DNA from: Ganoderma boninense
Taxonomy: Eukaryota > Basidiomycota > Agaricomycetes > Polyporales > Polyporaceae
Direction: 5' to 3'
DNA length: 64,000 nucleotides
Assembly (NCBI GenBank): GCA_002900995.3
Contig: CM035310.1
Location: 3,744,096-3,808,095, forward strand
A program made the position numbers and the translations under genes. The notes under the pieces are model-generated. The model was not told the DNA's origin and made no database searches. It was given only the letters and a program-made list of their open reading frames with translations. The first letter of the stretch is position 1, and each line of letters begins with the position of its first letter. Of the stretch, positions 108 to 64,000 are shown one piece after another.

Positions 108-1703
108 CTACACAGCAGGAGGAGGAGAGGTTTGGTGGGCGCCGGCCGGAGAGCACCCCTTATAATACAGGACATACCGGCCGGGACCGGGCCCCTGGCC
201 TACCCACTGATATTGCACGGCCGGGTAACTGACAAGTCCTATATACAATGATGTAATCATGTGGATCGCCCCGCTCCGGTGGAGCACCTCGGCGAGAGCA
301 GCGTGGACGCGGAGGAGCGTGCGGTCGGGGAGGTCGACGCCCGACGCTGATGCGCCGGCCCGGGCACGCAAGCTGTGGTCGGCGAAGGTGACGTGGCTGG
401 GGGGCGGCTGACCTTGGCCGATGTCGAAGACTGGGTCGGGGTTCTTGATCTCGTAGCGGTCGGGGGTCTGGATGTGGACAAGTGCGGGTGCGGCGGGTCA
501 GATATGGGCGTGCGGGAAGGGATGGAGACTGCGCCGCCAGAGACACAAGCAGAACAAAACTAGAACTAGGACTAGGACTAGAACTAGACACAGGAACGAC
601 TAGGAGGCAGATGGACGGAGAGGGGAGAGGGATGGCACTAACCTCGGTGGGGAGCAACCACCACAAGAACTGATGGAACGCCTGTCCGGCCCATCTATTC
701 ACCAGGAGCGTGTTTGCAGGTCCTTGCGCCACATGCTGGGCGAGCGCTGCGGGGTCTTGAATGCCGCAAAAGCGCCGCAAAATCCCCCACATGAGGTCCT
801 GGTACGCAGTGAGCACATGCCGAGTGCATGTAAATGTGAGGGAAGACCTGGAGCTCAGGCGACGCACCTGATTTGGCTCGGACTCGGACGGGAGCAATTC
901 CGCAGGAATGATCGGCACGGTGGTACAGTATACGACTCGCGCCACACCAGGCATCCCCTCGTAGTACGCGCTGCGATCGAGACCACCAGATACGAAGCAG
1001 CGTTGATTATCCCGGGCCATGACCTGGGAGTTCTGTTAACGGCCGGCTACAGGTGAAGGACGGGGGGAGAAGAATAGGCAGAGGCTCACTCACCAGCTTT
1101 CTGATATGACGCCGTTGGGATCTCGCTATGCTTGCGGCAGTCGGGGTCTCATCGCCTGCCGCGGGCGCTGGCCAACGATTATCATCATCTCCATTGAAGC
1201 GGTCATCATTCCCGTAAGCATGGACTGGGGCAGTTGTCAATACATGCAACTCACAGGATCATGATATGCTGAAACCTTACATGGCCAAAGCAGGAACGCC
1301 GCCCAAGTCGACGAGAGCTCATGGAGTGCTCGGACCAAGGCTCCGTGATGCATCTCCGCGCCTGGGGCGGCTGCATGAGCTCGCACGGCGTGCTCGCCAC
1401 ATACGCAGATAGCGGCAGAGACGTACCGCTTTCCTGCGACAAATCCTAGCTCATCGGCCACCTTGGACATGGCGTTGAAGAGGCTGGCGTTGTGAACGGA
1501 TGGCCAAGGGGAGACTCGGACGGGATGCGGATGCGTTCTGACCATGCGGGCTGGACGCTCGCGTGGCCTGCGGTGGTATCGTCGAAAACGTCGAGGTACT
1601 GTATAGAGCGAGCATGGAGAGCGGTGTCAGGGATTTCAGCATCCTGCATGAGGTTGTCGATGGCTTGAGTGAAGCCCGGAGTCAAGATGAATGGGAGAAC
1701 CAT
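108..1703 (-). pseudogene. Degenerate HNH_2-like gene, copy A (frameshifted, 3' truncated)
   Basis: Five-exon paralogue of copies B (4543-6190) and D (9436-11075). Exon 1 starts at 1703 (MVLPFILTPGF) and encodes the conserved segment ADELGFVAGKRYVSAAICV. Relative to B and D one base is missing near 1484-1486, between PFTTP and LFNAM, so exon 1 changes frame. The nuclease-like exons follow: RDNQRCFVSGG, then PIIPAELL, WGILRRFCGI, NTLLV and QFLWWLLPTE. Homology to D stops at about 266, just after LHRSGA, and the reading frame runs on through unrelated sequence to a stop at 108; the family's C-terminal block (FWRSVVEYEGPE) is missing. The order C-x-S-G, IIP, N-LL, F-WLLPTE matches the fungal HNH_2 (PF13391) layout, but the usual catalytic histidine before IIP is a proline. 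Lies on the left arm of the first palindrome, downstream of an F-box gene on the same strand. Probably a pseudogene unless the missing base is an assembly error. Confidence 0.68.
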
Positions 1704-4310
1704 CTGATTCCCTGAATGCCAGTGACAGATGGTGACGGTTGACTCAGACGGAAGGCGTAGTTGCTTCGAAGGAAAGCGAGCAAGGGCGGGAGACGGGGGA
1801 AGAGGAGAAGCACTGCAGTGTGAATCCAGTGCTCCTTCTGAATGACAGAAGATTCAAACTCGTGATCGTACGTGGTCAGAGCGCACAGTTTGGGCAGACT
1901 TATGTAAGAATACTGAACACCACGTCGTTCTCACGGCGCGCGGTGCCGAAGTTGAATTTCTCATCCTTCTCCCCACACGCCAATAAAACACGTAAGGACG
2001 AGAGAACAGTTTCTGCGAGTAAACAACATGCATGACATGCGAAGGTGACTCGCGAGCCCGTCAAAAGGCCTGCTAACAGTATGTGACACCATTCCTCAAC
2101 TTCCCTTGATCGATTGCATCCCAGTCATCCGACTCATACTCCACGCCGCACGCGGACAGTCCGTCTTGACCAGGAATACTTTGAGGACGAAACCCTTCAA
2201 CCTAAGTCCGACATCCTGGCACAACTTCCACCCCCAGCTTTCGACCGACTCCGCGTCGCGCCCTGGTCCTGCGCCGTCGCCACCTTCCTCATCCAATGAC
2301 GGCTGGGAGGTAGAGTCGGCGCCTGCGCCTGAGTCCGAGCCCAAGTCCGAGTCCAACTTGGAGTCGTCCGCGCCAGGATCCGACTCGGACTCCTTGGGTA
2401 CCTTGACGGTCAACGATCGCAATGGCGGAGTCCGCGCACGGACCCAAGTGCCCAACGCTCGCAAGACGGCATTCGCCAGTGCCCCATCCCGCGCCATGCC
2501 AACACAAAGCTCGAGGTCCTCGAGCCCCGGGCACAGCCTTCCTCCCTTCCCCTCACCCGCGTCCTCGAAATCCTCGAACGCCGCGAGCACGCGCCGGATG
2601 AGCGCCCCACCCCCGACGGCGAGCGCCCCCAAACCCGTCATGCCTGCGAAGAACCGCACCCAGTCGCGCGCGACGGGCAGCCCGTCCGCGACGTGGAGCT
2701 CGAGGCGGACGAGGTTGGCAGGGACGACGAGCTGCGGGATGCGGGCGAGGAAGAGCCCGCAGTACTCCTGGACGGAGCACAGGTACTGGTGCTCCTCGTC
2801 CTCGGCCACCCGGTCGACCAGCCCGAACACGGTGATGGACCACTCGTCGCCGTCGCCGTTGCTGTCGCCGCTACCACCTGTCTCGCCGGGGCCGCAACTG
2901 CCTCGCAAGCACACCTCCGAGTCCGCGACGAGCGCGAGGGAGCGCGAGCGGCGGATCGGGGGGAGGGCCTCGGTGATGTTCTGGGGCACGATGGGGAACG
3001 TGGCGCTGGTGTATCCGTTGCTGCAGTCGGCGTCGACGTGGAACGAGGAGAGGGCGGGGAGGCGGAGCGTGCCGAGCGCCGTCGCTATGTCACACGCGAC
3101 CTGGTCGAGCGTCAGCGAGCGGAGCCTCGGGAGCGTGACGACGGGGAGAACGTTCCGGGGGCGACAGGCGTGCTCCTCGATCATGTCCTTGGTGTCGTAC
3201 ATGAAGCAATTCTCCATGTTCAGTTCCTCGAGGTTCGGGCACGCCGCGAGGAAGCGGTGCACGGCGAGCCCAGGGGGCACGGCGTCCTCGTCGTAGGCGT
3301 GCGCGAGGTCGAGGCGTGTGAGACTGAGCAGCGGCGCCCCAGCCGTGGCGGTGGGTGTGATTCTGGACAAGGATAGGCGAAGGAGACGACGAGAACGCGT
3401 CCGGGGTGAATAGCCAGCTCTCCCTGCCGTCCCTCCACGCGTGCATGCTGTCTATCGACAGAAACACGACGCTCGCAGCCACGGCCATGACGAATTCTGC
3501 GACGGCTGGCAGGCGAACGTGGCTGTGGACCTTCAGGTTCTTGACGGGCGGCCTCGGGCTCCTGGCCAGGACGAGCCTCAGCGCGTCTTCCACCTCTTCG
3601 CCGCACTCCTGGGGGTCGCAAACGGAGATATCTAGCGGTGCACCCCGTGCGCGATCCAGTTGTGTCTCCAGAGCCTGGTCGTCCGCGGGGTCTGCCAAAG
3701 GCGAGATGAGGATAGAAGACCATAGTGAGGGCGTCTGCAGTGCAACTTCGCGCCACCTCTTGCAGATCCAGGTGGCGCGCACCCAATCTGCACCGATCCC
3801 ACGTTCGTTTGGGTAACAGGAATCCTTCAGGTGGTGGAAAATCATGGTGAGGATCTCGACGGGTAGTCGCTGGGTGAGATCCCGTGGCCGCACTCGGCCT
3901 GAAAGATGGCATGAGCATTGCTGGGCGGGTAGAAAGGCGCGTACATACCTCGCTGCATGGTGTTTTCGAAACGGTGCAGAGAAACGGATTCGACAGACTG
4001 GAAGTTATACAGTTTCCGATCAGGACAACGGCCCTTGAGAAATCAAAACGACGCCACTGGCGCGAGGCTCGTCGTATGAGGCCGAAGGAGAGCCTAAAGT
4101 GTGTGAGCCAACGGTCCGTTGATAAAGAATGTCGGAAATTGGAATAAACGTGCTTTGTGACGCATAAGTCGAATAGAACAAGCGGTGACTACTCCTTTGT
4201 GTGTGTCGCCGTTGTAAAATAGCCATTGCTATGTCCTTTGGCTTGTCCCGAACGAAGGAAAGAACCGCACAAAGGAGGGGAATCCTCGTAACATATTCCT
4301 AGACAGCGGT
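266..4310 (-). repeat. Inverted repeat 1, left arm (F-box + HNH-like cassette)
   Basis: The reverse complement of this stretch aligns with 6862-10829, including intergenic sequence. Examples are the stretch after the F-box stop (2041-2075 against 9031-9065) and the 5' flank with the shared GTCCCGAAC block (4240-4260 against 6899-6915). Each arm holds an F-box gene followed by an HNH-like gene. The arms differ by many substitutions and small indels, including different frameshifts in each F-box copy, so they are diverged paralogues and not a recent assembly duplication. Edges were judged by eye from where the alignment stops. Confidence 0.8.
2073..3958 (-). pseudogene. F-box protein gene H1 (two apparent frameshifts)
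   Basis: A tiny first exon (ATG at 3958, 10 bases, donor at 3948) splices to 3898 and reads into the F-box TQRLPVEILTMIFHHLKDSC, followed by WICKRWREVALQTPSLW. F-box domains bind Skp1 and bring substrates to SCF ubiquitin ligases. The rest is leucine-rich strand/helix sequence (LTRLDLAHAYDED, LRSLTLDQVACDI, LVRLELHVADG), typical of fungal F-box/LRR-like proteins, then an acidic Ser/Asp low-complexity stretch. Against paralogue H2 (7195-9037) there is one extra base near 3380-3394 and one missing near 2147-2158; the second loses the C-terminal CPACGVEYEPDDW motif. The homologous stop would be at 2073-2075; the shifted frame stops at 2096. F-box identity is strong; functional status is doubtful. 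Confidence 0.75.
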
Positions 4311-6861: not shown

Positions 6862-9800
6862 CACTGTCTAGAAGTTTGCTACAAGGATTCCTTTCCTTTG
6901 TTCGGGACAAGCCAAAATACATAGCAACGACTATATTACAACGGCGACACACACAAAGGAGTAGTCACCGCACTTATGCGTCACAAAGCACGTTTATTCT
7001 AATTTCCAACCTTCGTTACCTTTATCAACAGTCGGTTGGCTCACACACCTTAGGCTCTCGTTCGGCCTCATACGACGAGCCTCGCACCAGTGGCGTCGTT
7101 TTGATTTCTCAAGGGTCGAAACGCGTTGTCCTGATCGGAAACGTATAACTTCCAGTCCGTCGAATCCGTTTATCTGCACCCTTTCGAAAACACCATGCAG
7201 CGAGGTATGTACGCGCTATTCTACCCGCCCAGCCAAGCTCATCCCATCTTTCAGGCCGAGTCCGGTCACACCGGGAACTCACCCAGCGACTACCCGTCGA
7301 GATCCTCGCCATCATCTTCCACCACCTGAAGGATTCCTGTTACCCAAACGAGCGTGGGATCGGTGCAGATTGGGTGCGCATCTCTTGGATTTGCAGGAGG
7401 TGGCGCGAAGTTGCGCTGCACACGCCCTCACTATGGTCTTCTATCCTCATCTCGCCAGACCCCGCGGACGACAAGGCTCTAGAGACGCAACTGGATCGCG
7501 CACGGGGTGCACCACTTGATATCTCCGTTTGCGACCCCCAGGAGTGCAGCGAAGAGGTGGAAGAGGCGCTGAGGCTCGTCCTGGCCAGGAGCCCGAGGCC
7601 GCCCGTGAAGAACCTGAAGGTCCACAGCCACGTTCGCCTGCCAGCCGTCGCAGAATTCGTCATGGCCGTGGCTGCGACGGTCGTGTTTCTGTCGATAGAC
7701 AGCATGCACGGGTGCAGGGACGGCAGGGAAAGCTGGCTATTCACCCCGGACGCGTTCCCTCGTCTCGCTCGCCTATCCTTGTCCAGAATCATACCCACAG
7801 CGGCGGCCGGAGCGCCACTGCTCAGTCTCACGCGCCTCGACCTCGCGCACGCATATGACGAGTACACCGTGCCCCCCGGCCTCGCCGTGCACCGCTTCCT
7901 CGCGGCGTGCCCGAACCTCGAGAAACTGAACATGGGCAACTGCTTCATGTACGACCCCAAGGACATGATCGAAGAGCACGGTCCCAACGTCCTCCCCATC
8001 GTCACCCTCCCGAAGCTCCGCTCGCTGTGGCTCGACCAGGTCGCGTGCGACATAGCGACGGCGCTCGGGACGCTCCGCCTCCCCGCCCTCTCTTCGTTCC
8101 ACGTCGACGCCGACTGCAGCAACGGATACACCGGCGCCACGTTCCCCGTCGTGCCCCAGAACATCACCGAGGCCCTCCCCCCGATCCGCCGCTCGCACTC
8201 CCTCGCGCTCGTCGCGGACGGGGAGGTGCGCTTGCGAGGCAGTTCCGGCCCCGGCGAGACAGGTGGTAGCGGCGACGAGTGGTCGGTGACGGTGTTCGGG
8301 CTGATCGACAAAGTGGCCGAGGAAGAGGAATACGAGTACCAATGCTCCGTCCAGGAGTTCAGCGGGCTCTTCCTCGCCCGCATCCCGCAGCTCGTCGTCC
8401 CGGCCGCGCTCGTCCGTCTCGAGCTCCACGTCGCGGACGGGCTGCCCGTCGCGCGCGACTGGGCGCGGTTCTTCGCGGGCATGCCGCGTCTGAAGGCACT
8501 CGCGGTCGGGAGTGGGGCGCTCGTACGGCTCGTGCTCGCGGCGTTTGCTAGTGAGGACTTCGAGGACGAGGGGAAGGGGGTAGGCTGTGCCCGGGGCTCG
8601 AGGACCTGGAGCTTTGCGTCGGCAGGGCGCGGGATGGGGACCTGGCGAATGTCATCTTGCGGGCGTTGGGCACTTGGGTTCGTGCGCGCACAACGCCGTT
8701 GCAATCGTTGACCGTCAAGGTGGTGCCCAAGGATTCGGATCCTGGCGCGGCGGATGACTCTAAGTCGGACTCGGGCTCGGGCTCGGACTCAGACGCAGGC
8801 GCGGACTCTGCTTTCCAGCCGTCATCGGATGAGGAAGGTAGCGACGGGAACGACACTGAGTCGGTTGAAAGCTGGGCGCGGAAGCTGTGCCAGGACGTTG
8901 GACTCACGCTGAAGGCTTTCGTCCTCAAAGGCTTCCTAGAGAGGACGGACTGTCCTGCGTGCGGCGTGGAGTACGAGCCGGATGACTGGGATGCAATTGA
9001 TCAAGGGCAGTTGAGCAATGGTGTCACATACTGTTAGCGGGCCTTTTGACGGGCTCGCGAGTCACCTTCGAAGGTGATGCATGTTGTTTACCCGCAGAAA
9101 CCGTTGTCTTATACGTATTTTATTGGCCTGCGCTTGTCTGCGGGAGGAGGAATGAGAATTTCAACTTCGATCGCGGCACCGCGCGCCGTGAGAAAGCAAA
9201 GGTTTGGCCAGCTCCGACGGGTCTGCGGTCTACCCAAGGTCAACCGCACTGTGCGCTCTGACCACGTACGATCACGAGGTTGAATCTTCTGTCGTTCAGA
9301 AGGAGCATTGTATCCACATTGCAGTGCTTCTCCTCTTCCCCCATCTCCCGCCCTTACTTGCTTTCCTTCCCAGCAACTACGCCTTCCGTCTGAGTCAACC
9401 GTCACCATCTGTCACTGTCATTCAGGAACTTCCAGATGGCTCTCCCTTTCACCTTGACCCCAGGCTTCACTGAAGCTGTCGACAATCTCATTCAGGATGT
9501 CACAGTTCCCGACAGCACTCTCCATGCTCGCTCCAAACAGTACATCGACGTTTTCGACGATACCGCCGCGGGCCAGATGAGCGTCCGGCCAGCATGGTCA
9601 GAACGCATTCACATCTCCTCTGGGTCTCCCCTCCGTCAGCCCTTCACAACGCCGGGCCTCTTCAAAGCCATGTTCGAGGTCGCAGACGAGCTAGGATTTG
9701 TCGCGGGAAAGCGATACGTCTCTGCCGCTGTCTGCGTGTGTGGCGAGCACGCCGCGCGAGCTCATGCAGCCGCCTCAGGCGCGGAGATGCGTGGGGCCTT

Positions 9801-10829
9801 GGTACGAGCACTTCATGAGCTCGCGTCGACTTGGGCGGCGTTCCTCCTTTGGCCATGTGAGTTTTTAGCACACTCGTCTTCTGTGATGCACGCACTGGCT
9901 GATACCTGCCACCCTCCCAGTCCACGCGTACGGGTACGACGACCGTCTCCACGAAAACGAAAACGACGATGATCGTGGGCCAGAACCCGCCGGCGACGAG
10001 ACCCCGACTGCCGAAAGCACAACAAGCTTCCAACGCCGCGGGCATTTGAAAGAACTGGTGAGCGAGCCTCAGGCCCTGTCGGTCTTTTTGTCCCCTTCTT
10101 CAGCTGTTCCAACCCAGGTAATGGCCCGGGACAATCAACGCTGTTTCCTATCTGGCGGTCTCGATGACAGCGTGTACTACGAGGGGATGCCTGGTGTGAC
10201 GCGAGTCGTGTATTGTACCACCATGTCGATCATTCCTGCGGAATTGCTCCCGTCCCAGTCCGAGCCAAACCAGGTGCGTCACAGCTCCTGGTCTTCCCTC
10301 ACATTCACGGCGACATGCACTCAGCATTTGCTCACTGCCGAGCAGGACGCCATGTGGGGCATTCTGCAGCGCTTTTGTGGTATTCAAGACGCCGCAGCGC
10401 TCGCCCAGCAGGCGCAAGGAGCTTCAAACACGCTCCTGGTGCACCAATGGGCCGCAAGGGCGTTCAGCATGTTCCTGTGGTGGTTACTCCCCACCGAGGT
10501 CGGTGTCGTCCCTCTCGATCCATCTGCCTCCTTTCCGTGTCCAGTTCTGTTTTTGTTTCTGGCACGCTGACGGTGACGGGCTGTCTCCATGCCCCTTAAC
10601 TTACGTGCGACGACCATCTCTGACTCGCCGTTCCTGCACTCTCCACGCCCAGACCCTAGACCGCTACGAGATCAAGAACCCGGACCCAGTCTACAACATC
10701 GGCCACGGCCTCCCCCTCCCCAGCCACGTCACGTTCGCCGACCACAGCGAGTCGGGCGTAGACCTCCCCGACCGCACGCTGCTCCGCATCCACGCTGCGC
10801 TCGCCGAAGTGCTCTACCGGAGCGGGGCG
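6862..10829 (+). repeat. Inverted repeat 1, right arm (F-box + HNH-like cassette)
   Basis: Partner of 266-4310 in opposite orientation; carries F-box gene H2 and HNH-like copy D. The outer edge is within the last exon of the HNH-like genes, where copy A loses homology (about 10829, after LYRSGA), so copy D keeps its full C-terminus and copy A does not. This places the outer breakpoint inside a gene. Confidence 0.8.
7195..9037 (+). pseudogene. F-box protein gene H2 (one apparent frameshift)
   Basis: Exon 1 is ATG CAG CGA G (7195-7204), intron to 7254, then a long exon reading TQRLPVEILAIIFHHLKD, the F-box, followed by WICRRWREVALHTPSLW. Leucine-rich segments (LTRLDLAHAYDEY, LRSLWLDQVACDI, LVRLELHVADGLPVARDW) make up the middle. 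Near 8575-8583 one base is missing relative to H1, so the main frame runs off to 8711, while the family sequence (LCPGLEDLELCVG, RALGTWVRART) continues in another frame to a stop at 9035-9037 with the tail CPACGVEYEPDDWDA. Probable role is an SCF substrate adaptor. A TATA-like CGTATAAC lies about 50 bp upstream (7140-7148). H1 and H2 carry different lesions, so the common ancestor was intact. Confidence 0.75.
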
Positions 10830-17860: not shown

Positions 17861-18552
17861 ATGAATCAAACCTTGATTGCTCTCGTTATGCGGAGGTCCA
17901 CGCATGAGACCGGAAGGGCGTATGCCACTGAGGCAGTTGTCCTCGCAAGCAGTCTCTCCTTCTCCATGGCTTCGTTACGTGCACCTCTGTGCTATCCGGT
18001 CCGGAGATTGAAGGAAGTATACAATGTTCTGTTCACATTCTCAGTGTCTGTACTAATGCATCGTTTTGCAACGCGGAGCTACGGAAGCCCCTGTGATCAT
18101 TTACCGAAGAGCCCGACTTCTGGAGTCTTCTCACTCAGCCGCCCCTCCGCTCTCGATTTCCAATTCTGCGGTCGTTTTGGGCTTCGCTCAATGACTGGCA
18201 GTTGTTTCCGCGCGCCGGTTGTCGATTGTCACCGTGTCGTGCCTGTCTCTGGGAACTTGACCCACAGGGAGGTCCTTCGTAGGCGTGCGTGCTGTTGCGC
18301 CGCGAGCGACCCCACATGCTGCTCCGAGAGCGTTTGCCGCCTTTGGCGCACATTCCATTCCGACAACGTTAGTGAATTCCGGGCACCCAAGCCAGGCCAT
18401 GGTTTCGAACCAGCACGCGCTGACGACCTTGGGTGAGTGCCACTGGCCCACTCCAAACTCCGGAATAGCCTCCGGTGGAAACCAACATGGTGCGTACGCA
18501 ACTCGCAGCGTCAAGAGTTCACCCAGGTAAAGCACACGTCGTCCCAGACCCA

Positions 18553-18559
18553 TATAAAG
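18553..18559 (+). promoter_or_regulatory. TATA box of MDR gene K1
   Basis: TATAAAG about 70 bp upstream of the K1 start codon (18630). The same element and its surroundings are conserved upstream of the duplicated copy K2 (46746-46752). Confidence 0.6.
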
Positions 18560-18629
18560 GCCCTCAAAAGTGACATGTAGTTCCAGCACTCACATCAACT
18601 TCGATTACTACAGCACACTCACCGTGGCA

Positions 18630-19996
18630 ATGGCTCCGATGACCCAGAAAGCACTCGTCGTTCCCGCCGAGAAGGAACCCTTCAAGCTCGTCGCCGACTG
18701 GCCTGTCCCCCAGCCCGGTCCGACGGACGTCCTTGTCAAGCTCGTCTCCGTCGCTCTCAACCCCGTCGACGCGTTCGTCCAGGCGGTCGGCATTCCTGGG
18801 CTCGTTCCTGGATACCCGTGTGTCCTGGGAATCGATGGCGCAGGCACCGTCGAGGAGGTCGGCGCCGAGGTCACGAACATCGCGAAGGGCGACAAAGTGT
18901 ACGTACCGGAAAACTCTTCGCCCTCTGTGTTCATGTATTGACGCCCGCTACTGTTTGGACAGCCTCGTTCACGGCAACCTCGACTTGGAAAATCGCTACA
19001 CGACATTCCAGGAGTACACCATCCAGCCGGCCAAGTTTGTCGCAAAGGTATGTTCCTGCAGCTTATGCTTCAAGTTGTGTCTCCCGTTCAGGTACTCAAC
19101 ACATCGACGCCGCCCATGCAGATCCCAGCCAACTTGTCCTTCGACCAAGCGGCAACGATCTCCCTCTGTCTCGCCACGGTCGTGAATGGCATCTGGGGCC
19201 ACGAGGAGAACTCCACCTCGGCCCGCTTCACCCCTCCCTGGAAGGAGGGCGGCACGACCGAGTACGCCGGCCAGGCAGCGCTCATCCTCGGCGGTGGGAC
19301 CAACGTCGGTCAGTTCGGTACGTTGTTGTCGCTCTGAAGTTCTCTCCCCGGACTCCCCTCCATATTCACACTCTGAATCCCACCACGCATATAGCCATCC
19401 AGTGCGCGCGCATGCAAGGCTTCTCCCCGATCATCACCACCGCCTCCCCGAAGAACTCGACGCTCCTCGCGTCCCTCGGCGCGACGCACGTCCTCGACCG
19501 CGCGCTCGCCCCCGACGCGCTCCGCGCGGCCCTCGCCGCCGCAACCACCACCCCCATCACGTACGTCTACGACGCGTTCGGGCGCGCGCGCGACGCGCAC
19601 CGGCTCGGGTACAGCGTGCTCGCGCCCGGGGGCGCGTTCGTCACTGTGATGCCGTTCGACGACGGGACGCTCGCGGACCTCGTCGAGGAGAGCGCGCGCA
19701 AGGGCGAGGGGAAGCGCGTCGTGCGCACCCGCGCGAGCTACAGGGTCCCTGGCAACCAGGCGCTCGGAGGGGAGATCTTCAAGCGGCTCACGGGGTGGCT
19801 CGAGTCTGGGGCGATTGTGGTGCGTATGAGTTTAAATCGCGTCGTGGTATGGTGCGGAGCTGATTGCGCTGCTTTGTAGCCGAGCAGGGTGGAGGTGGTC
19901 CCGGGCGGGCTTGCGGGGATCGAGGCGGGGTGCAAGAGGATGATGACGTGGGACGTCGGGGCGAAGCTTGTCGTGCGCGTTGATGAGACTCCGTGA
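18630..19996 (+). CDS. Zinc-independent MDR oxidoreductase (quinone reductase / enoyl reductase-like), K1
   Basis: Five exons (18630-18898, 18963-19047, 19122-19317, 19395-19819, 19880-19996) give about 363 residues in full phase. The N-terminal GroES-like fold shows VPQPGPTDVLVKLVSVALNP, PCVLGIDGAGTVEEVG and GDKV; the Rossmann part has LILGGGTNVGQF, then AIQCARMQGF; the end reads MTWDVGAKLVVRVDETP. This is the medium-chain dehydrogenase/reductase superfamily, in the fungal quinone-oxidoreductase or trans-enoyl-reductase (ToxD/CipB-like) group, which uses NADPH and lacks the catalytic and structural zinc cysteines; none are seen here. The third-exon acceptor (CAG at 19119-19121) is supported by copy K2. 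No polyketide synthase or other cluster gene is nearby, so a specialised-metabolism role is not supported. Substrate unknown. Confidence 0.85.
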
Positions 19997-20164
19997 AGGG
20001 GCTCAATTGGCTTATTTGTGCACGTATGTGTTGTGTTTCGGGCTACCATCCGGTAGTATGTCCGTCGTGAATTCAACTCTTGAATGTCCGATTGGCCATC
20101 GAATGGAGGGCATCGTATGCTCCGTCGTCCGTTTAGCGATGCAGGGGTAAGTAGTAGCTTTTAA

Positions 20165-44095: not shown

Positions 44096-44195
44096 NNNNN
44101 NNNNNNNNNNNNNNNNNNNNNNNNNNNNNNNNNNNNNNNNNNNNNNNNNNNNNNNNNNNNNNNNNNNNNNNNNNNNNNNNNNNNNNNNNNNNNNN
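44096..44195. other. Scaffold gap of exactly 100 N
   Basis: 100 ambiguous bases, the usual placeholder for a join of unknown length. Order and orientation across it are not guaranteed. Confidence 0.98.
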
Positions 44196-45808: not shown

Positions 45809-46812
45809 TGAGGAATGTGAGGTCAAACTAGAAAATAAGAGTGCGATGGTGGGAGTGTGTTGGCTGTCGATTCTCGACGTTGGCGTTGAGAGTCGCACTC
45901 GAGCTCGAGGCCTGCAGCGGCTATTCGCCCCAATATGGATGGAGGCTGTGCTTCAGTGTTTTTCTGACGCCGTCTCCCTCTGCTGGAAACCACCATCGGC
46001 CACAGCGCACTAACCCCTTCTCTGTCTTGTCAGTTCTTGTTACCATGTCATTAGTTCTCTTTGCCGTTTTATTCTCGTGCGCTGCAGGTATGAGGTCACC
46101 GCTGAGAGCGGACACAGGAACGTGCCACACTTCATTCACATTGAAGATCATCCCAGTAGTCGATCGCCACTCGCTCAGCCGAGTCCCTTCACGTAACCCT
46201 ATACCGTCGCGCTTACGACCGCAATGGTGTCTGGGCCACTGTTTCGTGTGCGCTGCAGAGCCCTAGAAGGCGCTGTCATCATTCACGGGTAGGAGCCTGA
46301 CCTTTGGAAATCTCCCTCTCAGCAGCCTGAGCCTTCGATCTCTATTTTCCAATTCTCCTGTCAGTGGGCTTCGCTCAGTCCCTGGCTTGCGCGGGATTAT
46401 CACCCCGTCCTGCGTGTCTCTGGGAACTGGACCCACGGGGAGGTCCTTCGCAGTTCGGAGGCGTGCGTGGGGTTGCGTCACGAGCAACCCCACATGGAGC
46501 TCCGAGAGAGTTGGTCGCCTTTAGCGCACATTCAATTCCGACAGTCAATTCCGAGCAGTTGAGCTACTTCATAGTTTCCACCGATGACCTTAGGTAAGAG
46601 CCACAGATGAGAGCCACTCCCAGCTCCGCACTCATTGTATCCGGTACGAACTAACATGGCGCGTACGCAGCTCGCAGCTTCGAGAGGTCCCTCTGGTTGT
46701 CCGTAAACGACCTAACGGTCTCAAGCGGAGGCCATCGGAGGCGCATATAAAGACCCTCAAAGGTGGAATCTAGCTTCCACACCACTGACTCTCGAACACG
46801 CTCACCGTGACA

Positions 46813-48172
46813 ATGGCTCCAACGACCCAGAAAGCACTCATCGTTCCCGCCTAGAAGGAGCCCTTCGAGCTTGTCACCCACTGGCCCGTCCCCCAGCCCT
46901 GTCCGACGGACGTCCTTGTCAAACTCGTCTCCGTCGCCCTCAACCCCGTCGACGCGTTCATCCAGGCGGTCGGCATTCCTGGGCTCGTTCCTGGATACCC
47001 GTGTGTCCTCGGAATTGACGCCGCGGGCACCATCGAGGAGGTCGGCGCCGAGGTCACGAACGTCGCGAAGGGCGACAAAGTGTACGTACCAGAAAACTAT
47101 CCGCCCCGTATTCATTATTGACGCAGCCGCTACCGTTTGGACAGCCTCGTTCATGGTAACCTCGACTTGGAAAACCGCTACACGACGTTCCAGGAGTACA
47201 CAACCCAGCCGGCCAAGTTTGTCGCGAAGGTATGTTCCTTCAGCTTCTAGGCTCGTGTCTCCCATTCAGGTACTCAACACATCGACGCCGCCCATTTAGA
47301 TCCCAGTCGACATGACCTTCGACCAAGCGGCAACGATCTCCCTCTGTCTCGCCACGGTCGTGAATGGCATCTGGGGCCACGAGGAGAACTCCACCTCGGC
47401 CCGCTTCACCCCTCCCTGGGAAGAGGGCGGTACCACTCAGTACGCCGGCCAGGCGGCGCTCATCCTCGGCGGCGGGACCAACGTCGGGCAGTTCGGTACG
47501 CTGTCGCTCACGCTCTTATCCGACTCCCCTCCATTCTCACCTTGATCTCACCACGCATACAGCCATCCAGTGCGCGCGCATGCAAGGCTTCTCCCCGATC
47601 ATCACCACCGCCTCCCTGAAGAACACGACGCACCTCGCGTCCCTCGGCGCGACGCACGTCCTCGACCGCGCGCTCGGCCCCGACGCGCTCCGCGCGGCCC
47701 TCGCCGCCGCGACCACCACGCCCATCACGTACGTCTACGAGGCGTTCGGGCGCGCGCGCGACGCGCAGCGGCTCGGGTACAGCGTGCTCGCGCCCGGGGG
47801 CGCGTTCGTCACTGTGATGCCGTTCGACGACGGGACGCTTGCGGACCTGGTCGAGGAGAGCGAGCGCAAGAGGGAGGGGAAGCGCGTCGTGCGCACCCGC
47901 GCGAGCTACAGGGTCCCTGGCAACGAGGCGCTCGGAGGGGAGATCTTCAAGCGGCTCACGGGGTGGCTCGAGTCTGGGGCGATTGTGGTGCGTATGAGTT
48001 TAAATCGCGTCGTGGTGTGGTGCGGAGTGTGTGTGCTGATTGCGCTGCTGTGTAGCCGAGCAGGGTGGAGGTGGTCCCGGGCGGGCTTGCGGGGATCGAG
48101 GCGGGATGCAAGAGGATGATGACGTGGGACGTCGGGGCGAAGCTTGTCGTGCGCGTTGATGAGACTCCGTGA
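46813..48172 (+). pseudogene. MDR oxidoreductase pseudogene K2 (nonsense codon 14)
   Basis: A duplicate of K1 (18630-19996) with the same five-exon layout, but codon 14 is TAG (46852-46854) where K1 has GAG, in KALIVPA-stop-KEPFELV. The downstream sequence is otherwise well kept: VSVALNPVDAFIQAVGIPG, GIDAAGTIEEVG, LILGGGTNVGQF, GFSPIITTAS, and a terminal stop at 48170-48172. About 450 bp of 5' flank with the TATAAAG box (46746-46752) and about 120 bp of 3' flank are duplicated too. Initiation at a downstream ATG would remove the start of the GroES-like domain. Conservation after the stop implies the mutation is recent or is a base error. Confidence 0.8.
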
Positions 48173-48344
48173 GGGGGTCGAGTGGATTATCTGTACGCGT
48201 ATGTGACATGTGTTGTGCGTGATGGTTGTACCGGAATGCCTGCTTCATGCAGCCATCCAGTATGTCCGTCGTGAATTATCTTTACCATCTTGAATCCGCC
48301 AGGGCTTGAGCGTGACCGCGAGGCCCTGCCCCAACATCGACATA

Positions 48345-49224: not shown

Positions 49225-52200
49225 CTACAGCGACGTCGGTTCGACCGAGTCCGGCTTGAATCGCAATCGCGCGAGCAGGACACTGTCCCACATGTTGCCA
49301 GGGTTCCCGGACAGGGAGACCTTGCGCGCGTATTGCGGGTTTCCGGCCGGCACCTCCTCGTACTTCGGACCGCCGAGGAACGAGGTCGAGAGGTCGAAGG
49401 AGAAGCTGAACTCGCCCCAGATGTGGCCTGTGCGTGCCGCCGAGAAGACGTTGAAGTCGACTTGGCCGTCAGGGTGCTCGTGGCTCACGAAGAGCGCGTA
49501 GTCCTGGGCCTCGAGCGTCCCGATAACTGCAAGCATCACAGGATCAGCGGCAGAGTTGGGGGATGGAGACGGATTAAGAGGACCTACCGAGATACAGCTC
49601 CTCCTTCGAGATGCGGTGCTCTGCCCCGTAGATATCAAGGATATGGTCGACGTTGGCCTTGAACCACTTCTTTGGCGTCGAAAGATCCTCCAGGTATCGA
49701 TAGTTCGTCGATTCCGTGAACAGATGAGCAGTCTTGTGCCCGCACCGCAACGGAGAGGAGTAGCGACGTCTACAAAAGACTCGTGAGCATCTCGCGCAAA
49801 CACCTCTCCTGATATACATACGAATACTTTGCTTCTCCGCCAGCACGGTTCCGAGAGCTCAACCACGACTGGATGATGTCCATGCTACGCTGCGCCACGT
49901 TGCGTTTGTCCTGTCGCTGGTTGCTTTGACTGATCCTGCCATAGCCGTATATGGACGGCATGCCCACCGTCCGACCGCTCGACGTCTTCTGCGGATCGAA
50001 ACAGTTGAACAGCGTCACGAACTCGCCGTAGTTCGCCTTGCTATGGTACCCGACAGCTCCGATGGCGACCGGCGTCGGCGTCCACAAGGGAAGCGTCACT
50101 GGAAGCGTGTTAGCCACTTGCCTTCAGCGTATGAAACAGAGGAGGAAAAAGCGTACAAGATGGGTGGAACTCGTGCTGCAACAGCATCCGGTACCGACGT
50201 TCGTCGCGTACGTTCTGGGCGTGTTCATCGGGAGGGACAGGCGAGAAGTGTCGCGGGTACTCGACCTCGACTTGCTCGTGTTCGGACTGGCTGTCTAGCA
50301 CGGACGAGGATGCACGGCTGCTGGCCCGGCTCATGACCTCGTGGTGGCCGTAGTAATCACCATGATAGTCCTCCGAATGACTTTGGTCAGAATCGGGCTC
50401 TGCAGCGGTCGTAAATGAGACCTCGGTCGACGGCGCCGAGCCAACCTCTACGACTGAAGCAGTCATGTCGGCTGGAAACGACGCAGCAAGTAAGGACTAC
50501 GGACAACGACCGAGGCGCTCAGGACGAACTCACCTGGAAGCAGAGGCAGCGGGATCGGGTGCATGTCGGGGGACTTGCGCGTCTTGACATGCTGAATCTC
50601 TGAGACGCGCGGCGCGGGCGACTCCTTCAGGTCTGCCCCGTAATGAGCCCGAAGCTTTTGGACCTCCTGATCGACCTTCGCGAACGGCGGCCGAACGGCA
50701 GGATTGCGGTCCCAGCATTGGCGGAGGATCTCGGTAAGCTGCTGAGACCAGACCCGCTGGAGAGGGGGTTCTGGGCGCATGTTTTCCCCTAACGTCGTCC
50801 GGGTCAGAACATGGATGGAGGATATACAAAGCCGTGACTTACGTAGGACGAAGTGCCGCACAGCGTCGTCGTCCGCCAAAGGCCATGGCAGCGCGCCCTT
50901 GGTGAGTAGCTCAACGACGGTGATCGCAAACGCGTACACATCGATCTCCTGCGTCAAGTTGCTCTGGCCAGACATAAGCTCAGGGGCTTGCCACCTCAGG
51001 GTGCCGTCTGTCCGAGATGAGATCAGGTTGTCTCCTCAGTTCGCGGGTAGGGAGGCGCTTACGGGGAAGGGGCAGCCCGCTGACACGGTACGCCTCCGAC
51101 TTCATCTCGCTCTGGCCAAAGTCGCAGATGACGCAGTGGTGCTTGTCGTTCACCAGCACGTTCGCTGCCTAGAATGAAGGAAATCTCAAACATAAGCTCT
51201 GAGTTTTTACCAGCAATGACCCGGATGCGCGCGGGCACGCGGGCTCACGTACCTTGAGATCCCCATGCAGCACATCCTTGCTGTGCAGGTACGCCATGCC
51301 CTTGGCGATCTCGTGGATCATCTTGAGCAGATCGACGGAATCGAGCGAAGGCAGGCCCTTGAGGTACGTCACGAGGCTGCCACACTTGTAGTACGGGCTA
51401 ACGAAGAACCACGGCGGGTCGCTGGATGCCGACGACGCGCCCAGAAGCTCGCACACGTTGGGGTGCTGCAGCGTCTTCCAGATCGACACCTGCGCAAACG
51501 GAATCGGCGATGCGATTCATCGGGGGAAGCCAAGGGTCAGCACACAGTACATATTGGTACACAAGCGTGGACGAAGATATCGCCCGGAGGGCTCGCGGCA
51601 GATTGAATGCGGAAGGCGCGAGGAAGATAGACTGCCCAGATAAACAATATCGGCAGCATTCAACGACGCGCGTCGCTAGACTCATCGGGGCATGGTGATC
51701 GCCCAGACCAGGCCAAGGCCCGACACACCGAACTCAATCTCGACACCGAACTGCAGGGCGTGGCGTCCGAGCGTCGGCCCAGCTCATGCGGATAGCGAAA
51801 TGTGCCCGAAGCTCAGCCTCGCGGATCGTTGAATGCCAGATTTACGTCCACCGCATGTGCCGAACGGCTCGATCGGGCCCGGGCCCATGGCGCGCACGGC
51901 CTCGGGCCCGCTACACTCAGACAGAAGAAGACGGGACAGGAGGGGATGGAATAAGCTGCCGCTGCTCACCTCATGCACGAATAGCTTTCGCGGGGTCGTC
52001 GGCGCGAGGACCTTGATGGCAACGACGTGGTTCCTCCACGTGCCCTTGAACACGTCCGAGAAGAAGCCCATGCCGATCTTCTCGTCGCGCTCTACCTCGT
52101 ACCGCGTAATCGTCCAGCTCGGGAGCGTCACCTCCGCGCCGCTCAGCCGCCGGAGCGCGTCGATCCCCGTCTCGATGAACTCGCGGTCGAGCGTGTCGCG

Positions 52201-54047
52201 CGGCGCGCGCGAGCGGCCCGTCCCCGACGAGCTCGCGACCGAGCTGCTCGTATGGCTCCCCGTGCTGTGCACCGTCGAGGACCGCTTGAGGCCCTCGGGG
52301 TCAGATTGCACGATCTGCGGCACGTCGACGATGGGGACGTTCGCTGGGACGAGGACAGCCTCCTCCTCCTGGAGTTCACGATCAACCTCCTTCTCAAGCG
52401 CACGCTGCAGTGTCTTGATCGCCTCGGGCATCTCGTCGCGGCCGACCTGGAGGATGCGGATCATCTCGACGTCGCTGTTTGTCTGGAGCGCGGTGCGCAT
52501 GAGCTGGCGCAGGTCGACGGCGTCGTACACTGCGTCGCGGTCGTTCTGGCGCGCGGTGAGCGTCTGCAGCTGCGCGAGGACCTGCTGCGGGTTGCCATCG
52601 ACGTGGATGTCGGGGGACTCGGACCCAAGCAGAAGACCACCTGCGGGGGCGGCGTCGGTCTCTCGCGGTGGCGAAGCAGGCTCGATCGGGAGCGGCGCTG
52701 AACCCTGGGGGCTGCGGTTGATCGAGTCTAGGAGCGCGGCAGTATCGACCTGACGCTGACGCTCAGCGGCAAGGACTTGCTTCAGAATACGGATCTGGAT
52801 CGAAGTCTGAAACCTAAATGTGAGCAATGATACGTTCCCATTAAGAGCGGATTGGGCGCACGCACGTTGAACATGCCGAGCGCGTCTGTAAGACTGCTAT
52901 GACAGAGCCCGAGCGCTCGCTGAATCTCATCGCGCTGGAGGTACCGCTTGATGAACGGACGGTGCGACTGCTTCACAAGAAAGCGGTGAACTTCGCGGAA
53001 AGAGCTAGGACGAAGCGTTTCAGTTAGATCAAACGGGGTACACGTGGAAGAGGCAACTTACTCCACGAGACGCTTCAGTGGGGGTCGGAGCTCAGCACTG
53101 ACTTCGTCTCCTGCACCGGCAATCTCTTCACGAATAGACATGAGGACTGTCGCGCATCGCTCTGTAAGACGGAGACATGCCAGCCGATTGATCTAGAGAA
53201 TGGAAGGAGTTTAGGGATGGGTTGGGTTGAAGGACGGAGAGACCTACGTCGACCAATTGGAGAGACTCCCATATGTAAAGAAGCGTGCGGGCGGCTTCTT
53301 CTAGACCCACAATAGGCGCGAAGCGTAGGACGTCCACGCTGGCCTCTAAGAGCTCGTGGGCAATGTCCGCAGCAGTGCCAAGGATGTTGACAGCAGCCTC
53401 AGCGACGCGCTAAAGGGTGATGAGGACTGAAGGGCTCGGAGGGAAGTAAGGCGGCTAGTACTCACGTCTCTGGTGCGGATATAGCCCTCGGACTGCTCTA
53501 CAGGGATGTTCTTTTCCTTCTTCTGAGACCAGGGCCTGGGGGTGACTTCCCTGGACGTCCACCAGTTGGCCGAGTCGTCATGGTTATCGGGATGAGAGTC
53601 GTGACTGGAAGTGCGCCAGATGAAGGAAAGATCAGGAAGAGGGCTAACGGAGCGTTCGCGATGTTGAACGGAAGAGGTGCGACTTCTAGAGCGGAAGTCT
53701 GAGCTGAGGGGGAGAGGAACAAGAGTTGTGGTGGAAGAGGAGGTCGAGGTGGGAACGGGACTAGAAACGATGCGGTTGAGAGGGAACGACGGCGGTCGGA
53801 TGGTGGAGACGGAGGCGCCGCGAGAGCGGAGGGACTGAGAGGAGTCAGAGGTAGGAGGAGCAGACTTGGTAGATGCAGGAGATGCGGTATCGGAAGGAGA
53901 TAGCTTGGGGGACTTTGGGTGGGTAGGGTTGAGAGGTGACAAGGCCTTGACGGTAGATGCGGCGGATTCGGAAGATGAGCTGGAAGTGAGGGGAGACGGT
54001 AGAGCGGATGTCTTGGAGAGCGGGCTTGCCTTTGCGCGAGAAGGCAT
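49225..54047 (-). CDS. TKL-type protein kinase with MLKL-like N-terminal helical bundle
   Basis: Thirteen exons close in phase to 1,229 residues. Exon ends include 54047, 50471-50157, 50098-49822, 49769-49588 and 49526-49225; the stop is at 49225. Residues 1-194 are Ser/Pro-rich and disordered. Residues ~195-345 form a helical region with FAPIVGLEEAARTLLYIWES, NRLACLRLTERCATVLMSI, FIKRYLQRDEIQRAL and SIQIRILKQV, the pattern of the MLKL-type N-terminal four-helix bundle found in many basidiomycete proteins. The kinase domain (~575-870) has IGMGFFSDVFKG, VAIKVL (ATP-binding Lys), HGDLKAANVLV, CDFGQ and WQAPELM; HRD is HGD but the catalytic Asp is kept, so activity is plausible. An acidic linker follows, then a ~250-residue C-terminal region (MPSIYGYGRISQSNQRQDKR, YALFVSHEHPDGQ) I cannot name. 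An intron of ~476 bp (51494-51969) is unusually long. A second copy is at 60297-64000. Confidence 0.82.
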
Positions 54048-56954: not shown

Positions 56955-57054
56955 NNNNNNNNNNNNNNNNNNNNNNNNNNNNNNNNNNNNNNNNNNNNNN
57001 NNNNNNNNNNNNNNNNNNNNNNNNNNNNNNNNNNNNNNNNNNNNNNNNNNNNNN
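56955..57054. other. Scaffold gap of exactly 100 N at the centre of inverted repeat 2
   Basis: 100 ambiguous bases. The left arm ends at the base before the gap; the right arm resumes at 57396, so 57055-57395 has no visible partner on the left. Confidence 0.98.
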
Positions 57055-60296: not shown

Positions 60297-63200
60297 ATGC
60301 CTTCTCGCGCAAAGGCAAGCCCGCTCTCCAAGACATCCGCTCTACCCTCTCCCCTCACTTCCAGCTCATCTTCCGAATCCGCCGCATCTACCGTCAAGGC
60401 CTTGTCGCCTCTCAACCCTACCCACCCAAAGTCCCCCAAGCTATCTCCTTCCGATACCGCATCTCCTGCATCTACCAAGTCTGCTCCTCCTACCTCTGAC
60501 TCCTCTCAGTCCCTCCGCTCTCGCGGCGCCTCCGTCTCCACCATCCGACCGCCCTCGTTCCCTCTCAACCGCATCGTTTCTAGTCCCGTTCCCACCTCGA
60601 CCTCCTCTTCTACCACAACTCTTGTTCCTCTCCCCCTCGGCTCAGACTTCCGCTCTAGAAGTCGCACATCTTCCGTTCAACATCGCGAACGCTCCGTTAG
60701 CCCTCTTCCCGATTTTTCCTTCATCTGGCGCACTTCAAGTCACGACCCTCATCCCGATAACCATGACGACTCGGCCAACTGGTGGACGTCCAGGGAAGTC
60801 ACCCCCAGGCCCTGGTCTCAGAAGAAGGAAAAGAACATCCCAGTAGAGCAGTCCGAGGGCTATATCCGCACCAGAGACGTGAGTACTAGCCGCCTTACTT
60901 CCCTCCGAGCCCTGCAGTCCTCATCACCCTTTAGCGCGTCGCTGAGGCTGCTGTCAACATCCTTGGCACTGCTGCGGACATTGCCCACGAGCTCTTGGAG
61001 GCCAGCGTGGACGTCCTACGCTTCGCGCCTATTGTGGGTCTAGAAGAAGCCGCCCGCACGCTTCTTTACATATGGGAGTCTCTCCAATTGGTCGACGTAG
61101 GTCCTCTCCGTCCTTCACCCCAACCCATCCCTAAACCTCCTTCCATTCTCTAGATCAATCGGCTGGCATGTCTTCGTCTTACAGAGCGATGCGCGACAGT
61201 TCTCATGTCTATTCGTGAAGAAATTGCCGGTGCAGGAGACGAAGTCAGTGCTGAGCTCCGACCCCCACTGAAGCGTCTCGTGGAGTAAGTTGCTTCTTCC
61301 ATATGTACCCCGTTTGATCTAACTGAAGCGCTTCGTCCTAGCTCTTTCCGCGAAGTTCACCGCTTTCTTGTGAAGCAGTCGCACCGTCCGTTCATCAAGC
61401 GGTACCTCCAGCGCGATGAGATTCAGCGAGCGCTCGGGCTCTGTCATAGCAGTCTTACAGACGCGCTCGGCATGTTCAACGTGCGTGCGCCCAATCCGCT
61501 CTTAATGGGAACGTATCATTGCTCACATTTAGGTTTCAGACTTCGATCCAGATCCGTATTCTGAAGCAAGTCCTCGCCGCTGAGCGTCAGCGTCAGGTCG
61601 ATACTGCCGCGCTCCTTGACTCGATCAACCGCAGCCCCCAGGGCTCAGCGCCGCTCCCGATCGAGCCTGCTTCGCCACCGCGAGAGACCGACGCCGCCCC
61701 CGCAGGTGGTCTTCTGCTTGGGTCCGAGTCCCCCGACATCCACGTCGATGGCAACCCGCAGCAGGTCCTCGCGCAGCTGCAGACGCTCACCGCGCGCCAG
61801 AACGACCGCGACGCAGTGTACGACGCCGTCGACCTGCGCCAGCTCATGCGCACCGCGCTCCAGACAAACAGCGACGTCGAGATGATCCGCATCCTCCAGG
61901 TCGGCCGCGACGAGATGCCCGAGGCGATCAAGACACTGCAGCGTGCGCTTGAGAAGGAGGTTGATCGTGAGCTCCAGGAGGAGGAGGCTGTCCTCGTCCC
62001 AGCGAACGTCCCCATCGTCGACGTGCCGCAGATCGTGCAGTCTGACCCCGAGGGCCTCAAGCGGTCCTCGACGGTGCACAGCACGGGGAGCCAGACGAGC
62101 AGCTCGGTCGCGAGCTCGTCGGGGACGGGCCGCTCTCGCGCGCCGCGCGACACGCTCGACCGCGAGTTCATCGAGACGGGGATCGACGCGCTCAGGCGGC
62201 TGAGCGGCGCGGAGGTGACGCTCCCGAGCTGGACGATTACGCGGTACGAGGTCGAGCGCGACGAGAAGATCGGCATGGGCTTCTTCTCGGACGTGTTCAA
62301 GGGCACGTGGAGGAACCACGTCGTCGCCATCAAGGTCCTCGCGCCGACGACCCCGCGACAGCTATTCGTGCATGAGGTGAGCAGCGGCAGCTTATTCCAT
62401 CCCGTCCTGTCCCGTCTTCTTCTGTCTGAGTGTAGCGGGCCCGAGGCCGTGCGCGCCATGGGCCCGGGCCCGATCGAGCCGTTCGGCACATGCGGTGGAC
62501 GTAAATCTGGCATTCAACGATCCGCGAGGCTGAGCTTCGGGCACATTTCGCTATCCGCATGAGCTGGGCCGACGCTCGGACGCCACGCCTGCAGTTTAGT
62601 GTCGAGATTGAGTTCGGTGTGTTGGGCCTTGGCCTGGTCTGGGCGATCACCGTGCCCCGATGAGTTTGGCGGCGCGCGTCGTTGAATGCTGCCGATGTTT
62701 ATCTGGGCAGTCTATCTTCCTCGCACCTTCCGTATTCAATTTGCCACGAGCCCTCCGAGCGGTATCTTCGTCCACGCTTGTGGACCAATATGTACTGTGT
62801 GCTGACCCTTCGCTTCCCCCGATGAATCGCATCGACGATTCCGTTTGCGCAGGTGTCGATCTGGAAGACGCTGCAGCACCCCAACGTGTGCGAGCTTCTG
62901 GGCGCGTCGTCGGCATCCAGCGACCCGCCGTGGTTCTTCGTTAGCCCATACTACAAGTGTGGCAGCCTCGTGACGTACCTCAAGGGCCTGCCTTCGCTCG
63001 ATTCCGTCGATCTGCTCAAGATGATCCACGAGATCGCCAAGGGCATGGCGTACCTGCACAGCAAGGATGTGCTGCATGGGGATCTCAAGGTACGTGAGCC
63101 CGCGTGCCCGTGTGCATCCGGGTCATTGCTGGTAAAAACCCAGAGCTTAAGTTTGAGATTTCCTTCATTCTAGGCAGCGAACGTGCTGGTGAACGACAAG

Positions 63201-64000
63201 CACCACTGTGTCATCTGCGACTTTGGCCAGAGCGAGATGAAGTCGGAGGCGTACCGTGTCAGCGGGCTGCCCCTTCCCCGTAAGCGCCTCCCCGCCCGCG
63301 AACTGAGGAAACAACCTGATCACATCTCGGACAGACGGCACCCTGAGGTGGCAAGCCCCTGAGATTATGTCCGGCCAGAGCAACTTGACGCAGGAAATCG
63401 ACGTGTACGCGTTCGCGATCACCGTCGTTGAGCTACTCACTAAGGGCGCGCTGCCTTGGCCTTTGGCGGACGACGACGCTGTGCGGCACTTCGTTCTACG
63501 TAAGTTACGGCTTCGTATATTCTCCATCCATGTTCTGACCGGACGACGTTAGGGGAAAACATGCGCCCAGAACCCCCTCTCCAGCGGGTCTGGTCTCAGC
63601 AGCTTACCGAGATCCTCCGCCAATGCTGGGACCGCAATCCTGCCGTTCGGCCGCCGTTCGCGAAGGTCGATCAGGAGGTCCAAAAGCTTCGGGCTCATTA
63701 CGGGGCAGACCTGAAGGAGTCGCCCGCGCCGCGCGTTGCGGAGATTCAGCATGTCAAGACGCGCAAGTCCCCCGACATGCATCCAATCCCGCTGCCTCTG
63801 CTTCCTGGTGAGTTCGTCCTGAGCGCCTCGGTCGTTGTCTGTAGTACTTATTTTTATGTCGTTTCCAGCGGACATGACAGCTTCAGTCGTGGAGGTTGGC
63901 TCGGCACCATCGACCGAGGTCTCATTTACGACTGCCGCAGAGCCCGACTCTGACCACAGTCATTCGGAAGACTATCACGGTGATTACTACGGCCCCTACG
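60297..64000 (+). CDS. TKL-type protein kinase with MLKL-like N-terminus, right copy (cut by window end)
   Basis: Exons 60297-60878, 60935-61096, 61154-61284, 61342-61480, 61540-62376, 62853-63089, 63174-63279, 63335-63499, 63553-63807 and 63869 onward, all in phase, with the same splice sites as the left copy. The protein is nearly identical (differences such as PRKLF/PRQLF, APELM/APEIM). It shows the complete helical bundle and kinase domain; the C-terminal ~300 residues lie beyond the window. Residues ~195-345 are the MLKL-like bundle, Lys ~602 is the ATP-binding lysine, HGDLK ~692-696, DFG ~712-714. If the inverted repeat is a haplotype misjoin, this is the other allele of the same gene and not a second locus. 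Confidence 0.8.

Follow-up and report, generated by a model that had tools for sequence, protein, structure and literature searches.

A Ganoderma boninense kinase gene joining an MLKL-type helical bundle to a C-terminal domain of predicted gasdermin-like fold

What would a mushroom do with a competent protein kinase set between two folds that elsewhere attack membranes? The question is raised by a gene on the minus strand at 49225..54047 of a 64,000-nucleotide stretch of the Ganoderma boninense genome (assembly GCA_002900995.3, contig CM035310.1, positions 3,744,096 to 3,808,095), here called the window. Its product appears to carry an MLKL-type four-helix bundle, a kinase domain and a C-terminal domain (C-domain) of predicted gasdermin-like fold. 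The gene, the family of its bundle, the intact kinase and the recurrence of the domain order in relatives can be read from the sequences themselves. The best explanation we can offer for them is a kinase-gated membrane effector of Agaricomycetes, held tentatively, its chances being close to balanced.

Splice sites were picked by hand from the reading frames, and the last exon was followed to its stop. The gene runs on the minus strand from an ATG at 54047 to a stop at 49225–49227 and encodes 1229 amino acids; all 12 introns are GT–AG and measure 52–84 bp, except intron 5 at 480 bp. The model aligned exon by exon with predicted proteins from Dichomitus squalens (P0002) and Lentinus tigrinus (P0001), with no insertion of at least 8 residues in either. 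The database entries for Ganoderma sinense (P0121) and G. adspersum (P0122), with C-domain identities of 96% and 94%, are in good agreement outside exons 2 and 3; in those two exons few residues matched, and both proteins appear to be mis-spliced there, losing part of the MLKL-type bundle. P0121 carries the database name 'transporter'. The features of the gene are:

49225..54047, minus strand: whole gene, 13 exons (hand-built splice model in exon-by-exon agreement with P0001 and P0002)
54047-53466, 53409-53248, 53192-53062, 53004-52866, 52806-51970, minus strand: exons 1–5
51489-51253, 51168-51063, 51007-50843, 50788-50534, minus strand: exons 6–9
50471-50157, 50098-49822, 49769-49588, 49526-49225, minus strand: exons 10–13
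53517..54047, minus strand: residues 1–177, Ser/Pro-rich tail, poorly conserved (mean pairwise identity 0.38, many gaps), probably disordered to judge from its composition
53314..53516, minus strand: residues 178–226, conserved N-terminal extension of the bundle, by alignment conservation; intron 1 inside
52783..53313, minus strand: residues 227–346, MLKL-type four-helix bundle (Pfam MLKL_N; model matching MLKL 1–121); introns 2–4 inside
52390..52569, minus strand: residues 418–477, a conserved pair of helical look, after the bundle and ahead of the kinase (mean pairwise identity 0.60, falling to about 0.3 on both sides)
50667..52092, minus strand: residues 577–827, protein kinase (PF07714, conservation) with intact Lys603, HGD 692–694 and DFG 712–714
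49225..50214, minus strand: residues 958–1229, C-domain, predicted gasdermin-like fold (AlphaFold2 model; Foldseek and VIA-align matches)

An earlier note, made from the letters alone, had read an MLKL-type helical bundle followed by a kinase, and had staked this reading on profile or structural matches to MLKL/HeLo bundles; both kinds were obtained. Pfam MLKL_N (PF22215) matched residues 240–356 of the whole protein (E-value 1e-3, 19 bits) and, with residues 188–368 alone as query, gave E 4.6e-5 (23.4 bits), both scores lying under the curated cut-off of 27 bits. Among family members the profile matched 22 of 23 with E no higher than 0.1; the lowest value was 3.2e-8, and the first match scored 31.7 bits. 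The predicted bundle superposed on MLKL residues 1–121, with profile and fold similarity alike pointing to the MLKL/HeLo/HELL four-helix core. The range needed correction: the note had placed the bundle at residues 195–345, and the match lies at about 227–356, preceded by the conserved extension at 178–226, which appears in the model of the N-terminal region as a helix at 6–27 and a low-confidence stretch at 31–47. HMMER searches of PDB sequences returned nothing for the single bundle sequence and one unrelated match (E 2.1) for its profile, so the link to MLKL rests on Pfam and fold. A scan of the whole genome with MLKL_N, ignoring introns, gave two weak matches elsewhere and did not return this gene, in which the bundle coding sequence is split across four exons. 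These matches support an MLKL-superfamily four-helix bundle, placed ahead of a kinase whose catalytic set is intact. The conserved pair at residues 418–477 resembles the MLKL brace in position.

The kinase domain matched PF07714 with E 3.3e-53. Conservation was counted after aligning the query with 120 relatives (121 proteins), over ungapped rows only. Gly583 was kept in 118/118 rows, Lys603 in 116/116, Glu617 of helix alphaC in 117/118, the Gly of HGD in 118/120, Asp694 in 120/120 and Asp712 of DFG in 117/117. The glycine loop (Gly583 and Gly585) is conserved with at most one or two exceptions, and the activation segment is near-invariant over most of its length. The reading of the earlier note, that Lys, catalytic Asp (as HGD) and DFG are kept, extends to the family, and the kinase is apparently catalytically active. 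The acidic linker it described is likewise there: residues 361–534 have a net charge of −12 and residues 831–955 one of −11. An active kinase lying between the two folds, with acidic and variable linkers, suggests gating by phosphorylation.

Resemblance to MLKL has its bounds. The animal and plant protein, a four-helix bundle plus pseudokinase, shares the order of bundle then kinase fold, the MLKL_N match and the superposition described above. MLKL is a catalytically dead pseudokinase, whereas Lys, Asp and DFG are kept here in every ungapped row; moreover, our bundle is internal, behind an N-terminal extension, and there is an additional C-terminal domain. By score the kinase is not closest to MLKL or RIPK: of 1745 solved sequences that matched, the 60 with the highest scores were EGFR-labelled 9p9u, a reconstructed SRC/ABL ancestor, ABL, SRC, FES and one unnamed tyrosine kinase, a score ranking and not a tree. 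Because the kinase scores best with ABL/SRC-type chains among those solved, MLKL orthology is not implied; with the kinase also intact, we rejected a true MLKL orthologue. Some relatives are named TKL-ccin or abelson kinase in their source databases.

For the C-domain, which the earlier note did not recognize, Pfam indeed returned nothing with E of 1 or below; a structure search suggests what its fold may be. No gasdermin model or chain was found for it in Pfam, PADLOC, NCBIfam or PDB sequences, in searches run with no known fungal gasdermin as a positive control. Scattered weak matches, each to a single member or chain family (e.g., RadC/JAB, E 0.055–0.27), were taken as chance; the only strong match in the library searches was a zinc cluster of one member, outside the C-domain. 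An AlphaFold2 model built from 20 sequences reached a predicted local distance difference test score of 66.4. Gasdermins filled the first 14 Foldseek rows and the first 20 VIA-align rows, covering the whole domain, among them bacterial 7n52 and 9a84, fungal RCD-1 (8jyy, 8jyz) and GSDME (9h5m). CDC/MACPF proteins, which are structurally related to gasdermins, came next in the lists, and the viral control was empty. We consider a gasdermin-like fold probable, on a model of moderate confidence. An unrelated fold, matched to gasdermins through an imperfect model while bundle and kinase stand as described, is distinctly less probable; it would have to account for so uniform a match list spanning the entire domain, for the CDC/MACPF proteins behind it and for the empty control. 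Set beside gasdermin pore-forming domains, the C-domain is alike in its predicted fold only; sequence matches are lacking, and the domain sits behind a kinase at the chain end. Mean-field direct coupling analysis, run on 189 of 305 C-domain matches (effective number 105), yielded mostly noise and was not used.

Is this arrangement a peculiarity of one genome? With residues 190–360 as query, 153 proteins fell within an E-value of 1e-3; residues 958–1229 brought in 284 within 0.01. The top 120 from either search together made up 155 different proteins. Three domain profiles, built partly from the same proteins, placed bundle, kinase and C-domain in that order in 151 of the 155. The other four (P0025, P0030, P0041, P0092) lacked the C-domain; P0041 is named partial. 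These rows were chosen by bundle or C-domain similarity and say nothing on the occurrence of the kinase otherwise. The organisms named, which we take to be Agaricomycetes throughout, are in many cases represented once, while some have two or three entries (for example many Mycena, Lentinus tigrinus and Epithele typhae). Among bundle-search relatives (best 120 of 153), 18 are annotated with MLKL_N and none of the 120 with a name for the C-terminal domain.

The C-domain also occurs in other settings. A profile search admitting lengths of 0.55–1.75 times the query gave, in the best 120 of 131 proteins, 111 with the C-domain only, 8 with kinase and C-domain and 1 with bundle and C-domain. Many of these proteins lie on short contigs, perhaps as fragments, but some have the appearance of genes in their own right (for instance Laccaria bicolor P0198, Mycena vulgaris P0222, Hebeloma P0225 and Phlebopus P0234). 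Panaeolus papilionaceus has separate C-domain proteins P0191 and P0195, the former with a Zn2Cys6 cluster domain in front; the Zn2Cys6 match, in one C-domain family member, has E 1.4e-7. In Steccherinum ochraceum (P0123 / P0167), the C-domain-only EIP91_006836 and the full kinase EIP91_006834 have near-consecutive locus numbers and lie on contigs of equal length, and the former is likely a neighboring partial copy. Searching the G. boninense genome itself with the C-domain returned only this gene and a second copy, treated below.

How, then, might the protein work? Membrane action is known for the MLKL and HET-S bundles and for gasdermins of animals, fungi and bacteria (excerpts of PMC12881547 and PMC10197012). 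Autoinhibition, release by phosphorylation and membrane action, as we infer them, would proceed as follows. At rest, both modules would be kept inactive by the kinase together with the acidic linkers, which are long and rich in Ser/Thr. Some signal would cluster or activate the kinase; once the linkers or the modules had been phosphorylated, one or both modules would come free, bind a membrane, oligomerize there, and permeabilize or remodel it. A role in regulated cell death may follow, as the earlier note also supposed. In the strongest version, the single chain would be a phosphorylation-triggered double executioner, a necroptosis-type bundle and a pyroptosis-type pore-former both gated by the active kinase, with no upstream RIPK3 or caspase needed; this we think unlikely.

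Several observations temper this picture. The bundle does not open the chain, a long tail preceding it, and the family is conserved, both of which speak against simple killing. Mean pairwise identity (1500 random pairs, fewer where gaps dominate) was 0.61 for the bundle, 0.66 for the kinase and 0.60 for the C-domain, 0.60 for the segment 418–477 and 0.73 for the segment before the kinase; linkers and tail fell to 0.30–0.38. Fungal gasdermin genes, by contrast, are reported to follow a birth-and-death regime, and to adjoin protease genes in about 80% of cases (both from excerpts of PMC10197012). Foldseek probabilities for the C-domain, finally, are weak beyond one entry. Much of this would suit a non-lytic signaling kinase, in which bundle and C-domain serve as membrane-docking or oligomerization modules without killing, and membrane substrates are phosphorylated during hyphal growth or fruiting. 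Such a kinase would be expected to keep its catalytic set intact and all three domains about equally conserved, as found, and a dN/dS ratio (replacement to silent divergence) of about 0.05 between the two gene copies fits as well. It leaves unexplained why two folds with membrane-permeabilizing known members were joined. We rate it somewhat below the kinase-gated effector and somewhat above the double executioner; the readings overlap in part.

Known systems bear on how new the effector would be. Basidiomycete MLKL-like domains have been found in NOD-like receptors (NLRs) (excerpts of PMC9815663); those bundles belong to the same superfamily, while here the bundle is joined to a kinase and Pfam finds no NOD module. 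Closer are the fungal HELL domains that, according to a figure legend in PMC12881547, sit in kinase or pseudokinase proteins, likewise fusing bundle to kinase fold. They are possibly the same family; the portion of that text available on HELL-kinases neither names the proteins nor mentions a C-terminal gasdermin-like domain. In the FslK lineage, Agaricomycete kinases that lie close to tyrosine kinases and have full catalytic sets have been described, and additional domains were reported for only 16 of 241 members (excerpts of PMC3937382); our kinase, too, is Agaricomycete with a complete set, and its relatives bear the TKL-ccin or abelson names given above. Bundle-plus-kinase fungal proteins are already in print, and the predicted gasdermin-like end is the addition. 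No report of a chain of bundle, kinase and gasdermin-like end appeared among the titles and abstract openings of the open-licence PMC matches listed; a prior mention is possible. If the fold holds, necroptosis and pyroptosis executioner folds would meet in one kinase-controlled mushroom protein. That would put regulated membrane rupture directly under kinase control, in fungi whose cell-death machinery is little studied.

The earlier note had also raised heterokaryon incompatibility, and on this the second copy is informative. The sequence from 57396 onward to 66812 (window coordinates) repeats that from 56954 down to 47462, inverted, at 96.4% and 93.1% identity; the ungapped inverted pieces covering the second copy are 96–99% identical.

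60297..64000, plus strand: second gene copy, inverted, running past the window end to about 65117 (inverted pieces; splice junctions kept)

GT donors and AG acceptors are kept at all 12 introns of this copy. One-base differences at 64998 and 65007, past the window end, alter its last ~40 residues and reflect either sequencing error or a damaged allele. Assembly gaps of 100 N lie at 44096-44195, 56955-57054 and 67090-67189 (the last one past the window end); two of them enclose a separate 10-kb contig that holds the second copy, and a gap also terminates the first arm. The simplest and most likely reading is that the second copy is the other haplotype of the dikaryon, scaffolded in reverse. A true inverted gene duplication was set aside, the second copy being flanked by gaps.

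Over the first 1180 codons, dS between the copies was 0.0755 and dN 0.0041. Silent divergence was uneven, 0.04–0.08 in most segments and 0.26 in residues 831–955, which also hold 4 of the 11 replacements; residues 181–360, spanning the bundle, have none. Under the haplotype reading the copies are alleles whose divergence is mostly silent, contrary to the pattern expected of a polymorphic incompatibility gene, with two copies compared. HeLo and gasdermin proteins do act as heterokaryon-incompatibility (het) genes in Ascomycota (excerpts of PMC12881547), and a polymorphic het gene is a reading we nonetheless consider highly improbable here: the domains are conserved (0.60–0.66), close relatives occur across many genera, and the two copies, possibly alleles, differ so little in protein. 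Because the protein is conserved and its copies differ mostly by silent changes, we expect a constant physiological role, in cell death during development or stress or in a damage response, rather than allorecognition polymorphism.

Two further repeats were noted in the window, their families named by eye from the reading frames. Direct copies of a zinc-type alcohol dehydrogenase-like gene or fragment, 91% identical, lie at 18551-20030 and 46744-48205 (plus strand), and an inverted repeat of 84% identity at 267-4262 and 6891-10829 carries leucine-rich, F-box-looking frames.
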